Below, one piece after another: positions 1-63,538 of a DNA stretch of 64,000 bases. The translations under genes were made by a program, and so were the position numbers. Below the pieces are notes generated by a model, which made no database searches, had not been told where the DNA came from, and worked only from the letters and a program-made list of their open reading frames with translations. Numbering within the stretch: position 1 is the stretch's first letter; every line of letters starts with the position of its first letter. Origin of the DNA: Agromyces sp. S2-1-8 (GTDB taxonomy: Bacteria > Actinomycetota > Actinomycetes > Actinomycetales > Microbacteriaceae); NCBI RefSeq assembly GCF_021129215.1, contig NZ_JAJOLP010000001.1:186001-250000 (forward strand). Reading direction: 5' to 3'.

Positions 1-1849
1 GCGGCGTGTACTGCACGCGGTCGAATGCGTCGGTCGGTGCCGTGCCGGCCACTTCGAGCGAATCGAAGATCGTGCCGCCGCCGTCGTTGCCGACGATCAC
101 GAGCAGCCGCGGCCGCGCCTCGCCGGCGCCGATCAGCATCGACCCGACATCGTGCAGCAGGGTCAGGTCGCCGATGAGGGCACGGGTCGTGCTCGAGTCG
201 GCAGCACCGCCGCGGGATGCCTCGGCCGAGGCCGCGATCGACCGCTCGACCTGTTCGGCCGCGGCGAGCATGGCGGCGAGCTCTCCGCCCGCGGGCCGAG
301 GCGTGGAATCCGAGTGGGTCGAGGAGCGAGAGGCGGGCGTCTCGGAACCCGGCTGCGGCTGGACTCGAGACGGGCGCTCCTCGACCGGCTCTTCCGCCGA
401 GGCATCCAGCTGGCTCGCGATCGCGATGCCGAGCGCGGTGGCGACCGTTCCGTCGATGCCCGCGAGCCCGCGGTTCGCATGCGCCGCGATGCGGCGGCCG
501 GGCACCGCCCGGTCGGCGTCGCGGATCAACCGCGACGCCCCGAACACGAGCCGGTCGTGCGGCCACGTCGCAGCCCAGACCGCGTCGACGAGCATGCGGC
601 GCGTGATCGGCGCGCGCACCCCGTCGAGCTGGGCGCGCATGAACTCGCGATGCGCCTCGAAGTCGTGCACGTGCCCCGTCTCGTCGATGCCCGGCGAGAC
701 CGGCGGCGGCGCGGTCGGCAGGCCGGCGTCGACGACGATGCGGCTCGCATGCACCCAGCGCCGGACCCAGGCGCGCTCGTCGGGGGTCGGCGATGCGGGG
801 TCGGCGTGCACGGCGCGTTCGAAGCGGCGCACGCGACGGCCCGGGTTGAACCATTCGACGCCCGACGGAGCGACGACGATCGACTCGACGTCGTCGCGCT
901 GCACGAGCGCCGGCACCTCGCGCGACAGCGTCGGATGCCCGAACACGACGACCCGCTGCACCTGGTCGCCGAAGCCGGGCTCGCGCAGCAGCTCGCGGTA
1001 GGCGACGACGAGGTTCGGTCCGAAGTGCGCACCGCTCGTGACCTCGGCGATGAGCGGCCAGTCGCCCGCACGTGCGAACGCCTCGGCCTCGGGGCCGGCT
1101 CCGGCGCCCGCGACGACGACGGTGCGCGGGCCGCGGGCGATGAGGGCGCCGGTGGGGCCGCCCGGGTTTCGAGACGCTCCGACGCCGCTCTCCGACCCGC
1201 TCGAGGCGGCCGGGTTTCGTGACGCTCCGTCGTCGCTCGACGACCCGCTCCACGCCGACGACAGCGGTTCGCGCAGCTGCAGGTTCACGTGCACGGGTCC
1301 GGGCCCGGGGTGCGCGATGATCCCGCCGTCGAGGTCGCGCCCGAGCGCCGCGGCGAGCGCCTCGCGCGCGAGCCGCTCGGCGGCGGCCGCCTCGCCCGGG
1401 GCCCCCTCGGGCGCGGTCACGTCGCGTTCGAGCCGGACCGCTCCCGCGAAGATGCCGGGCTGCATGGTCGTCTGGTTCGAACGGATGCCGCGCATCTCGG
1501 CGGGGCGATCGGAGGTGACGAGCACGAGCGGAACCCCCGAGTGATGCGCCTCGAGCACCGCGGGATGCAGGTTCGCGACCGCCGTGCCCGAGGTCGTCAC
1601 GACGACGGCGGGTCGGCCGGTCTCGACGGCGAGGCCGAGCGCGAGGAATCCGGCGCCGCGTTCGTCGATGCGCACATGCAGGCGCAGCCGGCCGAGCCGC
1701 TCGAACTCGGCGGCGGCGAGGGCGAGTGCCTGCGACCGCGACCCGGGTGCGACGACGACATCGGTGACCCCTGCCGCGGTCAGGGCGTCGAAGAGCGCGA
1801 CCGAGTAGGCGGTGGCGGGGGCGGTCTCGAAACGCTCGCCGGCGCTCAC
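1..1849 (-). CDS. menD: MenD, 2-succinyl-5-enolpyruvyl-6-hydroxy-3-cyclohexene-1-carboxylate synthase (3' end outside window)
   Basis: ThDP-dependent MenD condenses isochorismate with 2-oxoglutarate (decarboxylated) to give SEPHCHC, the first committed step of menaquinone synthesis in the cytosol. The frame is open from a GTG at 1849 to the window edge, giving about 616 visible residues. Recognisable MenD segments are VVAPGSRSQALALA and RIDERGAGFLALG (N-terminal ThDP glutamate region), SDRPAEMRGIRSNQTT, and near the edge ALIGDLTLLHDVGSML and VIVGNDGGGTIFD. The protein is larger than usual: extra low-complexity stretches at about residues 200-228 and 487-511 coincide with copies of a dispersed DNA repeat, and the first residues also lie in a copy. 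It follows the PLDc_N gene by 21 nt and is probably co-transcribed. The GTG start is my choice; no strong ribosome binding site is visible. Confidence 0.95.
   Translation of the reverse strand, partial: MSAGERFETAPATAYSVALFDALTAAGVTDVVVAPGSRSQALALAAAEFERLGRLRLHVRIDERGAGFLALGLAVETGRPAVVVTTSGTAVANLHPAVLEAHHSGVPLVLVTSDRPAEMRGIRSNQTTMQPGIFAGAVRLERDVTAPEGAPGEAAAAERLAREALAAALGRDLDGGIIAHPGPGPVHVNLQLREPLSSAWSGSSSDDGASRNPAASSGSESGVGASRNPGGPTGALIARGPRTVVVAGAGAGPEAEAFARAGDWPLIAEVTSGAHFGPNLVVAYRELLREPGFGDQVQRVVVFGHPTLSREVPALVQRDDVESIVVAPSGVEWFNPGRRVRRFERAVHADPASPTPDERAWVRRWVHASRIVVDAGLPTAPPPVSPGIDETGHVHDFEAHREFMRAQLDGVRAPITRRMLVDAVWAATWPHDRLVFGASRLIRDADRAVPGRRIAAHANRGLAGIDGTVATALGIAIASQLDASAEEPVEERPSRVQPQPGSETPASRSSTHSDSTPRPAGGELAAMLAAAEQVERSIAASAEASRGGAADSSTTRALIGDLTLLHDVGSMLIGAGEARPRLLVIVGNDGGGTIFDSLEVAGTAPTDAFDRVQYTP
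316..388. repeat. Dispersed repeat (TCGAG/CTCGA family), in-frame copy inside menD
   Basis: Two facing degenerate copies of the family (GGTCGAGGAGCGAGAGGCGG... at 316-350 and GACTCGAGACGGGCGCTCCT... at 362-388) lie in the menD reading frame. They sit between the residues matching GIAIASQL and ALIGDLTLLHD, which are almost adjacent in typical MenD proteins. The frame is kept through both copies. Confidence 0.65.
1164..1250. repeat. Dispersed repeat, tandem pair inside menD
   Basis: Two successive copies (GGGTTTCGAGACGCTCCGAC... at 1164 and GGGTTTCGTGACGCTCCGTC... at 1212), each ending in a CGACCCGCTC-like tail, lie in frame in menD at about residues 200-228. They encode a Ser/Gly/Asn-rich loop in which ASRNP occurs twice, once per copy. 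Confidence 0.7.
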
Positions 1850-1861
1850 CGCTCGACCACC
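1823..1861. repeat. Dispersed repeat overlapping the menD start codon
   Basis: A copy beginning GGTCTCGAAACGCTCGCC and ending GCTCGACCACC spans the menD GTG start (1847-1849). The first nine or so residues of MenD and its upstream leader are therefore repeat-derived. Confidence 0.6.
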
Positions 1862-1870
1862 GGGGCGGGC

Positions 1871-2308
1871 TCAGGCATTCGGGCGGCCCGTGGATCCGGG
1901 CTCCCCCGGCTTGTCGGGGTTCTCGGGGTGCGTGCCGGGTTCGGCCTGGTGGCCGGCGTTGCGGCCGTCGGCCGAGGCATCGGGCTCGCCGTCGAGGTCG
2001 GCGAGTTCCGCTTCGAGGCGACGGATCCGCTCTTCCTGTGCCGCGTCGACGCCGAGGCGACGCAGGAAGTCGGCGTCGTCGTCGGGGGCGACCGTGCGGA
2101 GTCGGCCGCTGGGCATGCGTTCGGCGCGGGCGCGGCCGACGAAGAACCAGAGCAGCCCGCCGATCACGGGAATGACGAGGATCACGACGATCCACCATCC
2201 ACGGGCGATGCCCCGGATGCGGGAGCGATCGATCAGGGCGCAGTCGACGACCGCGTAGATCATGAAGATCGCCACGGCGACGACGAGTCCGAAGAGCAGC
2301 CGTGCCAT
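1871..2308 (-). CDS. Small membrane protein with PLDc_N (phospholipase D N-terminal-like) domain
   Basis: This 145-residue protein has two N-terminal membrane segments (about residues 3-25 and 37-60) with the PLDc_N signature GWWIVVILVIPVIGGLLWFFVGR. A charged tail follows, with a coiled-coil-prone stretch (about residues 90-110) and a Pro/Gly/Glu-rich end. No phospholipase catalytic motif is present. PLDc_N proteins are inner-membrane proteins of unknown role. It precedes menD by 21 nt on the same strand, so the two are likely one transcript. The ATG sits 6 nt after a TAGACT -10 box, which supports this start and a leaderless message. It is divergent from the DUF4229 gene. Confidence 0.85.
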   Translation of the reverse strand: MARLLFGLVVAVAIFMIYAVVDCALIDRSRIRGIARGWWIVVILVIPVIGGLLWFFVGRARAERMPSGRLRTVAPDDDADFLRRLGVDAAQEERIRRLEAELADLDGEPDASADGRNAGHQAEPGTHPENPDKPGEPGSTGRPNA

Positions 2309-3751: not shown

Positions 3752-3838
3752 GGTCGGTCGAGGAGGCGCGCAGCGCCGGATCGAGACCACGCCGGCCAGG
3801 TGGCCTCGATACGCTCCTCCGTCGCTACTCGACCGACC
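3752..3838. repeat. Dispersed repeat, inverted pair
   Basis: The left copy begins GGTCGGTCGAGGAGGCGCGC and contains GGATCGAGACCAC. The right copy is its near mirror, CCTCGATACGCTCCTCC... ending CTACTCGACCGACC. Together they form a long imperfect hairpin ending 3 bp before the marR stop, so it could also end marR transcription. Confidence 0.75.
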
Positions 3839-18532: not shown

Positions 18533-18575
18533 GGTTTCGAGTCGCGTCGGCGCTCCGCGTCGACGCGACTCGACC
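18533..18575. repeat. Dispersed repeat copy with internal hairpin
   Basis: It starts GGTTTCGAGTCGCGTCGGCG and ends GACGCGACTCGACC. GAGTCGCGTCG and CGACGCGACTC pair across a 10-nt loop, so it may also terminate the small gene to its right. 18458-18632 holds nothing else recognisable. Confidence 0.6.
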
Positions 18576-25499: not shown

Positions 25500-26147
25500 T
25501 CAGTTCTCCTCGAGCAGGCTGTCGACGAGCCCGCGGAGGATCGACGCGTCCTCGAGCTGGCCGAGCACCCGGGCCGCGACGCGGCCCTGCTTGTCGAGCA
25601 CCAGCGTCGTCGGCACTGCGGCGGGCGGAACGTCGCCCGCGAACGCGAGCTGCACGTCGCCGTCGTCGACGTCGAGGATCGAGGGGTACTCGACGCCGTA
25701 GGTCTTCTCGAAGGCGTTGGCGTTGCCGGCCTGGTCGCGCACGTTCACGCCGACGAAAGCGACATCCTCTTCGCCCGAGCCGTAGTGATCGTAGACCTCT
25801 TCGAGGATGGGCGCCTCGACCCGGCACGGCGCGCAGCCCGCGTACCAGAAGTTCACGACCGTGACCTGGCCCTCGGTGTCGGCCGAGTCGAACTCGTCGC
25901 CGTCGGCCGTCTCGCCCGAGAACGCGACGGGCTCGCCGCGCGAGCCCTCGTCGAACTCCGAGATGCTGCCGTCACCGGCGATGTAGTTCTTGCCGCTGCC
26001 CTCGCGGAACTGGTCGGCGAGCGGGTCGCTCGTGCAGCCCGTCAACAGCAGCGCGGTCGCCGCGGCGATCGCGACGATCCCGACCGTCGGTCGAGTAGCG
26101 CCGCGCGCAGCGCGACGCGTATCGAGACCACGTGCACGAACACGCAT
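25500..26147 (-). CDS. resA: ResA/TlpA-like lipoprotein thioredoxin
   Basis: This extracytoplasmic thioredoxin reduces the CxxCH cysteines of apocytochrome c. It has 215 residues. The lipoprotein signal has lipobox LLLTGC (C38), and the thioredoxin site is [10 protein letters not shown] (C105, C108), with the cis-Pro region at AVPTTLVLD. The ATG at 26147 overlaps the phosphatase stop as TGATG, so the genes are coupled. Odd point: residues 5-19 ([15 protein letters not shown]) are encoded by a copy of the dispersed repeat, giving an unusually long Arg-rich n-region before the signal core. Confidence 0.93.
26089..26129. repeat. Dispersed repeat copy inside the resA signal-peptide codons
   Basis: GGTCGAGTAGCGCCGCGCGC... 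to GCGTATCGAGACC, in frame with resA and lying between its ATG and the hydrophobic core of the signal. Confidence 0.75.
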
Positions 26148-62170: not shown

Positions 62171-63538
62171 TCAGAGGTTCGCCGTGAGGCGCGCGAGCTC
62201 GGCGAGCCGGTCGGCCCGGTCGCGCGGCGCACCCGGCACCCCCGGCCGCTGCTGGTCGGGCCGCGGCCCCGAGGGCGGCCGGTAGGCGACACCCCGCGCA
62301 TCGAGCCAGGCGAGATACCCGGGCAGCCGGGCGGCGAAGTCGTCGGGGTCGACGGGCCCGCCGTTCCAGGCGACCTCGGCGAACGCCCCGAGCCGCGGGA
62401 ACACCGCGTAGTCGAGCCGATCGCGACCGTCGAGATGCTCGCACCAGACGTTCGCCTGCACGCCCGCCACGCGGTCGGCGAACCAGGCCGGCGACTCGGC
62501 GGGCACGGGGTCGAAGGTGCCGACGTCCTCGACCGACAGCACGGTGCCGACCGGGATCGGCTCCTCGGGCAGGTCGGACTGCCGGTAGTCGAGGTAGGTC
62601 CACAGGTCGGGGCACAGCACGACGTCGTGCCCGAGCCGCGCGCCCAGCTCGGCGCCGACCGGCCCGCGCCACGACGCCACGATCGCGTCGGGTGCGGGGT
62701 CGCGGCCCTCGAGCATCTCGTCCCAGCCGACGACCCGGCGGCCGTGGCCGCGTACGCGGTCGGCGATGCGCGCGAGGAACCACGACTGCAGCTCCTCCTC
62801 GGTCGTGAGCCCGCGCTCGGCCATGAGCTCCTGCGTGCGCGGGTCGGCCCGCCAGCGATCCTTGCGCACCTCGTCGCCGCCGATGCCGATGAACTCGGAG
62901 TCGAACACCTCGCACAGCTCGTCGAACACGGTGCCGACGAACTCGAGCGTCGCGTCGTCGACGTTCAGCACCTCGTCGCTGATGCCGAACCGCGGCCACG
63001 GCTCGGCGACGCGCTCGCTCACGGCCTCGGCGCCGCCGACCCCGAACTCGGGATACGCGGCGAGGATCGCCTGCGCGTGCCCCGGCACGTCGATCTCGGG
63101 CACGATGCGGATGCCTCGCGCCGCCGCGAATCGCACGAGCCCGCGCAGTTCGCCATGGGTGTACCAGCCCTCGTGCGGAACCCCGTCGAGCGTCGAGTGC
63201 GGCCCGTGGCCGAGCTGGGTCTGCGAACGCCGTCCGCCGACCTCGGTGAGGCGCGGGTAGGCGCGGACCTCGAACCGCCAGCCCTGGTCGTCGGTGAGGT
63301 GCAGCTGGAGCACGTTGATGCGGTGCGCGGCGAGCAGGTCGATGAACCGCTCGAGATCGGCCACCGGCCGGAAGCGCCGGGCGACGTCGAGCATGACGCC
63401 GCGCCACGCGAAGCGCGGCTCACCCTCGAGGCGGAGGCCGGCGGCGGTCGAGTCGGCGCGCAGCGCCGTCTCGAGACCCTCCCCGACGTGGTCTCGAAAC
63501 GCTCCTCCGTCGCTCCTCGACCGACGCCCCACGGTCAC
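62171..63538 (-). CDS. GH20 beta-N-acetylhexosaminidase (catalytic domain only)
   Basis: This 455-residue enzyme should release terminal GlcNAc/GalNAc from chitin- or peptidoglycan-like oligosaccharides. The domain starts at FAWRGVMLDVARRFRPV and shows INVLQLHLTDDQGWRFEV, GIRIVPEIDVPGHAQAIL and the catalytic pair FIGIGGDEVRKD (Asp222, Glu223). Later come VVGWDEMLEG and VQANVWCEHL. No signal peptide and no N-terminal GH20b domain are present. GTG at 63538 overlaps the proC stop by 4 nt. The first 35 or so residues come from two copies of the dispersed repeat, so the original start may have been changed by insertion. Confidence 0.9.
   Translation of the reverse strand: MTVGRRSRSDGGAFRDHVGEGLETALRADSTAAGLRLEGEPRFAWRGVMLDVARRFRPVADLERFIDLLAAHRINVLQLHLTDDQGWRFEVRAYPRLTEVGGRRSQTQLGHGPHSTLDGVPHEGWYTHGELRGLVRFAAARGIRIVPEIDVPGHAQAILAAYPEFGVGGAEAVSERVAEPWPRFGISDEVLNVDDATLEFVGTVFDELCEVFDSEFIGIGGDEVRKDRWRADPRTQELMAERGLTTEEELQSWFLARIADRVRGHGRRVVGWDEMLEGRDPAPDAIVASWRGPVGAELGARLGHDVVLCPDLWTYLDYRQSDLPEEPIPVGTVLSVEDVGTFDPVPAESPAWFADRVAGVQANVWCEHLDGRDRLDYAVFPRLGAFAEVAWNGGPVDPDDFAARLPGYLAWLDARGVAYRPPSGPRPDQQRPGVPGAPRDRADRLAELARLTANL
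63446..63524. repeat. Dispersed repeat, inverted pair in the GH20 5' codons
   Basis: GGTCGAGTCGGCGCGCAGCG... (63446-63478) and GTGGTCTCGAAACGCTCCTC... ending CCTCGACCGAC (63488-63524) face each other. Both are in frame with the GH20 gene, right after its GTG. Confidence 0.8.

Follow-up and report, generated by a model that had tools for sequence, protein, structure and literature searches.

The menD gene of Agromyces sp. S2-1-8, which belongs to vitamin K biosynthesis, carries copies of a short palindromic repeat at three sites. This is very probably a REP-like element dispersed in Agromyces, with copies inside genes being kept where they are in frame and fall in tolerant loops, so that the encoded peptides would be passive and MenD would remain functional. 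The element would have entered menD in its start region, in the linker that follows the first domain (loop 1) and in the turn ahead of the conserved GDLTLLHD block (loop 2).

The menD gene and its repeat units

The gene lies at the beginning of the 64-kb stretch of DNA analysed here (the window). Its product was identified as MenD by TIGR00173 (329.2 bits against a curated cut-off of 244.2; E=4.8e-98), and its nearest named relatives were from Agromyces. It is single-copy, a second match being a 33% similarity to a region of another enzyme. The repeat was described by a covariance model (R1) trained on 23 copies, several of them from menD itself; membership of the training set is given in Table 1. 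Four menD matches were returned by the whole-genome search with R1, while the fifth, the degenerate unit of loop 2, came from a search of 208 kb. An earlier note, made from the letters of this DNA, had placed the repeat at three sites of menD, and this was borne out by R1 matches at the start, in loop 1 and in loop 2. The tandem pair with its two ASRNP peptides is present as described there, a 48-nt direct repeat (D3) underlying its first unit, and the reading frame, which was said to be kept, is open across both loops.

Table 1. Position of menD, its start region and the repeat units in the window
Feature	Position	Strand	Reading or class	R1 score	E-value	R1 training set
menD CDS	2-1849, cut by window start	-	GTG at 1849-1847; full ORF of 661 codons from GTG			
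Upstream ORF, 145 aa	1871-2308	-	stop overlaps ancestral menD ATG (ATGCCTGA)			
Orphaned ancestral start	ATG 1878-1876; ORF 1846-1878	-	MPEPAPVVER and stop (10 codons)			
Unit at menD start	1823-1858	-	gives GTG and first residues MSAGERFET	21.6 bits	0.0066 (whole genome)	outside
Loop 1, unit 1 of tandem pair	1213-1245	-	SSSDDGASRNP	32.1 bits	1.5e-6	outside
Loop 1, unit 2 of tandem pair	1165-1197	-	SESGVGASRNP	40.3 bits	2.0e-9	inside
Loop 2, unit opposite to gene	317-349	+	GSETPASRSST	42 bits	4.9e-10	inside
Loop 2, degenerate unit facing 317-349	361-386	-	VEERPSR	21.8 bits	2.9e-4 (208-kb search)	outside
Two facing units	3756-3788 and 3802-3834	+ and -	classed not in-gene	R1 match		
Single unit	18533-18575	-	classed not in-gene	R1 match		
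Single unit	26089-26129	+	classed not in-gene	R1 match		
Two facing units	63446-63478 and 63490-63522	+ and -	classed not in-gene	R1 match		

Sequence, copy number and placement of the element

The repeat is an imperfect hairpin in which the arms GGTYGAGGAGCG and CGTMTCGARACC are separated by a spacer of 9-19 nt, giving units of 33, 35 or 41 nt (23 aligned copies, 22 of them distinct); the arm-to-arm spacing is at least 9 nt in all 23. As aligned here, the CGTC/CGTA motif sits in the 3' arm beside the loop and not at the terminus of the unit. The stem columns of the aligned copies are paired in 94.5% of cells. Compensatory changes altered 12 cells on both sides, compared with 3.8 in shuffles, and none of 500 shuffles reached 12; one example is T-A to C-G at column pair 4/40. 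Further pair types showed no excess in the stem (8 versus 8.5 in shuffles). The claim of a hairpin is based on this covariation, because the folding energies of four single copies were unremarkable (z -1.23 to 0.55).

The genome-wide search accepted E up to 0.1 and scored 150 candidates, so that its counts are lower bounds. At least 113 R1 matches in at least 92 clusters were found in Agromyces sp. S2-1-8. Among the matches listed, the commonest unit lengths were 33, 41 and 35 nt (47, 16 and 10 of 113, respectively), the range being 27-60 nt, and 16 of the 92 clusters were facing '+-' pairs. Counted per 0.4 Mb along the chromosome, the clusters of the matches listed numbered 12, 8, 13, 23, 6, 5, 2, 1, 10, 11 and 1 (the last bin being short); they are scarce at about 2.4-3.2 Mb. 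Six relatives contained between at least 80 and at least 154 matches each (E up to 0.01). Across the Microbacteriaceae the element was detected in 74 of 199 genomes and 40 of 85 genera (E up to 1e-6), a patchy distribution which suggests repeated loss or transfer.

The element is mainly extragenic and is depleted in genes, as expected of a REP. Thirteen of the 92 clusters among the matches listed were in genes, versus 722 of 1000 random places that were called coding (Fisher 2e-28), and 79 of 92 were outside genes versus 278 of 1000, the 1000 control positions being drawn from the 64-kb window only. A cluster was called in-gene by a codon-usage test, which gave 11 of 92; the menD start, which was uncalled, and LigD of Agromyces sp. 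S2-1-8, missed on the threshold (0.06 vs 0.1), were added by hand.

The element may move by transposition. Since the Y1/RAYT transposase (PF01797) was absent from all 60 Agromyces genomes, with the control positive in 5 of 14, a candidate mover is missing. No target-site duplication was obvious by eye at MurB or at the menD start.

The covariation of the stem, the location of most copies outside genes and the 16 facing pairs would also fit copies that act as DNA or RNA hairpins, in chromosome structure, mRNA decay or recombination, with any change of protein a tolerated side effect. We regard this as unlikely: the degeneracy of several menD copies in this genome speaks against their being maintained there, and the window contained no Rfam match at gathering threshold.

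Repeat units in other genes

Units were found in frame in the genes for MurB, a GH38 alpha-mannosidase, a GH42 beta-galactosidase, an NAD-kinase-like protein, a DUF222/HNH protein and LigD. The in-frame unit of MetH occupies residues 336-349. It falls between two Pfam domains, the homocysteine S-methyltransferase domain (up to residue 327) and the pterin-binding domain (from residue 376). A RecF-like protein gave a weak match (19.2 bits), and a good unit is present at the equivalent position in A. cavernae. Among the 13 clusters counted in genes, the match in TsaD (20.8 bits) is probably due to chance, and another is in an ORF of 942 aa at 3636144 that has no Pfam match and may not be a gene.

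MurB and LigD each had a match in 59 genomes, and in each case 30 of these were examined at the level of the locus. The MurB insert is absent in genome G049, where the match to the gene is 54 nt shorter and 92% identical, while A. cavernae and A. humatus have units of their own in the same loop. In LigD, R1 matches occurred in the corresponding stretch of 14 of 30 loci, and translation placed them in linkers at 6 of these, a further locus being placed by its peptide; both inserts of G049 lie between Pfam domains. The interdomain linkers of LigD thus seem a recurrent landing place across Agromyces. Sixty regions of three relatives had 14 of 90 clusters in genes, including those for a RecF-like protein, LigD, an ABC-type ATPase and a prolyl oligopeptidase; the regions were picked from the best-scoring matches listed and are a non-random sample, and clusters less than 200 nt from a region end were excluded. 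An ORF of 986 aa in A. cavernae has three tandem DGRSAPSSTHS peptides, which look like another expansion of the element.

Predicted structure and selection

AlphaFold2, run on 56 aligned sequences (48 ORFs from Agromyces and 8 loci from outside the genus), predicted the structure of MenD with a mean pLDDT of 80.9 and a pTM of 0.82. The fold is that of MenD, the best Foldseek matches being MenD of M. tuberculosis with a TM by target of about 0.8. Segments of three or more residues with pLDDT below 50 were found only at residues 1-3, 205-230 and 486-519, which are the three repeat sites. The model is consistent with loops that are disordered, but in these poorly aligning stretches low pLDDT may come partly from the thin alignment.

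Purifying selection acts on the gene but much less on its loops: dN/dS for core and loops was 0.105 and 0.594 against G049, 0.176 and 0.714 against A. italicus, and 0.146 and 0.987 against A. lapidis. The protein is presumably made and active.

Recurrent hits in the same loops, as seen in MenD, MurB and LigD, could mean that the inserts were recruited for a function at the protein level, for example regulation or assembly. This is quite improbable, as the loop sequences differ between species and their dN/dS is 0.6-1.0, units in other genes of the three relatives use all three frames and both orientations, and A. lapidis has no recognisable copies.

The menD start region

In five relatives that were checked, the stop codon of the upstream gene overlaps an ATG (ATGCCTGA) that is in frame with menD and starts it. 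Between this ATG and the conserved N-terminus there are 62 nt in Agromyces sp. S2-1-8, 24 nt in G049 and 27 nt in A. italicus; the region is thus 38 and 35 nt longer, respectively, and the ancestral ATG has been thrown out of frame. Its short ORF ends in a TGA that overlaps the GTG borne by the repeat (GTGA, 1849-1846). This GTG is the first start codon past the upstream in-frame stop, and none other was seen before the conserved N-terminus. The GTG within the repeat is therefore probably the sole plausible menD start remaining, at which translation would restart, and the start of menD in Agromyces sp. S2-1-8 would depend on a repeat. The start region of A. lapidis is also long (63 nt) and is in frame without an R1 match.

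MIRU repeats of mycobacteria are an actinobacterial repeat at an overlapping stop/start junction. They differ from the Agromyces element in sequence and length, and the menD start is the only site here that resembles them.

An assembly error or a pseudogene, with the frame kept by chance or by an indel, would most likely concern this start insertion: the additional 35-38 nt are not a multiple of 3, and if one base of the insert had been missed, the ancestral ATG would be in frame with menD. The explanation as a whole is nevertheless very improbable, given the single-copy gene with a core dN/dS of 0.11 and the two loops, where a frameshift is unsupported, both being in one open frame in 56 of the 56 aligned ORFs; at the start insertion, however, the assembly may be wrong by one base, which would give another reading.

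MenD loops across Agromyces

The genus set comprised 60 Agromyces genomes, the source genome included, of which 56 MenD ORFs were used; G011, G020 and G050 were dropped for having distant matches only, and G040 because its gene was split over contigs. The 56 loci had 45 R1 matches (E up to 0.05), 29 of them within the ORF. Twenty-six of these 29 were in loops 1 and 2, which constitute 11.6% of the ORF; the binomial value of 1e-21 for this concentration overstates independence, as the 29 matches share descent. Loop 1 contained 15 matches in 9 genomes and loop 2 contained 11 in 6 genomes. Of the remainder, two mutually overlapping matches were at the start, in Agromyces sp. S2-1-8 only, and one was in the core, where at 16.5 bits it is probably a chance match. 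The carriers form a clade of Agromyces sp. S2-1-8, G049, A. italicus, A. cavernae and A. humatus, with Agromyces sp. Soil535, L037 and the pair L021/L028 outside it. In the single-gene tree, several deep nodes of which are weakly supported, A. lapidis is nested inside the first clade and has no match in either loop.

The inserts had been said to separate conserved blocks that are nearly adjacent in ordinary MenD. This fails for loop 1, which is 42 residues long here and about 36 in MenD of M. tuberculosis. Loop 2 is a large insertion, of 73 residues compared with about 13 in M. tuberculosis (the two M. tuberculosis lengths were counted on the alignment). Loop 1 was slightly longer in carriers (39-53 and 99 residues versus a median of 39 in non-carriers; p=0.013), so that some copies may have replaced sequence and not lengthened it. 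Loop 2 was clearly longer in carriers (median of 19 in non-carriers; p=0.002). Only about 23 of its 73 residues are accounted for by the repeat units (317-386), and its predicted helix (from residue 521) resembles sequence of A. lapidis and A. soli that has no repeat match. In A. lapidis, loop 2 has 68 residues and no R1 match; together with the long start region of that species, this indicates that length alone needs no repeat. Relatives without an R1 match carry other residues in both loops, and the possibility raised in the earlier note, that they share the same residues without repeat-like DNA, found no support.

Decayed arms of the repeat were searched for by PWM in the match-free loops of 47 (loop 1) and 35 (loop 2) genomes. 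There was no overall excess (KS p=0.36 and 0.69), three loop 1 and four loop 2 genomes falling below p=0.05, which gives no support to the view that every long loop derives from an old repeat.

All 12 opposite-strand units in MenD loops use the GFET frame. A frame preference due to selection was considered and rejected, as units in other genes use all frames. Shared ancestry is the simpler reading of the uniform frame, and the differing inner sequences of units that share a frame in menD of different species might be due to gene conversion between copies. In loop 1 of A. humatus, which has 99 residues, four GGLRS and six SRNP units lie close by, a tandem micro-expansion inside the gene.

Convergence of GC-rich low-complexity linkers on repeat-like sequence, with no insertion, would agree with loops that are long and variable even without a match (medians of 39 and 19 residues) and with the PWM result, but is scarcely credible beside the many loop copies at E 1e-14 to 1e-6, their near-consensus DNA, like that of intergenic copies, the near-consensus 33- to 41-nt units in loops of A. 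italicus, A. cavernae and G049, the shorter orthologs at the menD start and MurB, and the recurrence in unrelated genes.

Proposed origin of the inserts

Our preferred reading, insertion of a REP-like element with survival in tolerant places, would proceed as follows. A palindrome found in Microbacteriaceae, REP-like, usually 33-41 nt long and often present as two facing units, is scattered through Agromyces genomes, and most gene-borne copies would be purged. For a copy to survive, the inserted length would on balance have to leave the reading frame intact or, as at the menD start, a new start codon would have to rescue it; the encoded peptide would also have to lie in a loop or linker tolerating much change. 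The peptides (ASRNP, GFET, VEER and similar) would serve as passive spacers in an enzyme that remains functional.

A wider reading, which we consider possible but rather doubtful, is that REP insertion, tandem micro-expansion and decay form a continuing source of new loop sequence in presumably essential enzymes, with repeated hits in the same loops, and that a repeat captured the menD start, leaving a leader of 10 codons and a restart at the GTG. The lack of an excess of arms in match-free loops counts against such a continuing source. As a warning for annotation, variable loops in Agromyces enzymes can be the remains of mobile elements.

Relation to known repeats

REPs are described as palindromes of about 14-40 nt with a common consensus that are mostly extragenic (PMC12306157) and of high copy number (PMC3733652). 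The Agromyces element is likewise a short palindrome with consensus arms, high in copy number and mostly extragenic. The RAYT/IS200-type Y1 transposase whose presence in the genome marks a REPtron was not found in the Agromyces genomes.

Intragenic REPs of the GTAG and CGTC families were reported in BMC Genomics in 2013 (PMC3733652). As described in that report, they resemble the Agromyces element in being palindromes of 20-40 nt, mainly intergenic and often dimers, of which a minority lies in ORFs, sometimes at two sites per gene. They sometimes occur at about the same site in orthologs, as in recB of two Xanthomonas, which may be compared with the Agromyces loops, and CGTC REPs seem, by the same account, to have no dedicated transposase (PMC3733652), just as no RAYT was found in Agromyces. 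The CGTC REPs differ in their loop of 4-5 bp (PMC3733652), the arms of the Agromyces element being 9 nt or more apart, and the Agromyces element is without the GTAG tag of the GTAG REPs. Actinobacteria are missing from the phyla listed for the two families in that paper (PMC3733652). No report of the Agromyces family was found in the open-access literature, which is weak evidence of absence; judged by title and abstract, the papers listed for sequence words of the element look unrelated. That REPs and RPEs occur inside genes is established, and the actinobacterial family in Agromyces seems not to have been described in the literature searched.

The earlier note had likened the menD inserts to the protein-coding palindromic elements of Rickettsia (RPEs). 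The parallel holds in kind, as both are multi-copy palindromes inserted in frame in conserved enzymes, here in low-confidence loops and with shorter orthologs, but the two are not the same family, the Agromyces element being REP-like with units of mostly 33-41 nt. According to PMC3767692, RPEs too lie within pre-existing ORFs with the frame intact, and orthologs differ in repeat content at the same locus, as in Agromyces. They are described there as solvent-exposed in the protein. The Agromyces inserts are predicted with very low confidence. RPEs are 100-150 bp and belong to Rickettsia and Wolbachia (PMC3767692), whereas the Agromyces units are mostly 33-41 nt and occur in a GC-rich actinobacterium. 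Protein-coding palindromic repeats are thereby brought to a GC-rich actinobacterial genus with 60 comparable genomes. This comparison could test whether inserts are passive or recruited, and it allows a test of the question posed for RPEs, namely an insertion hot spot versus one old diverged insertion (PMC3767692).
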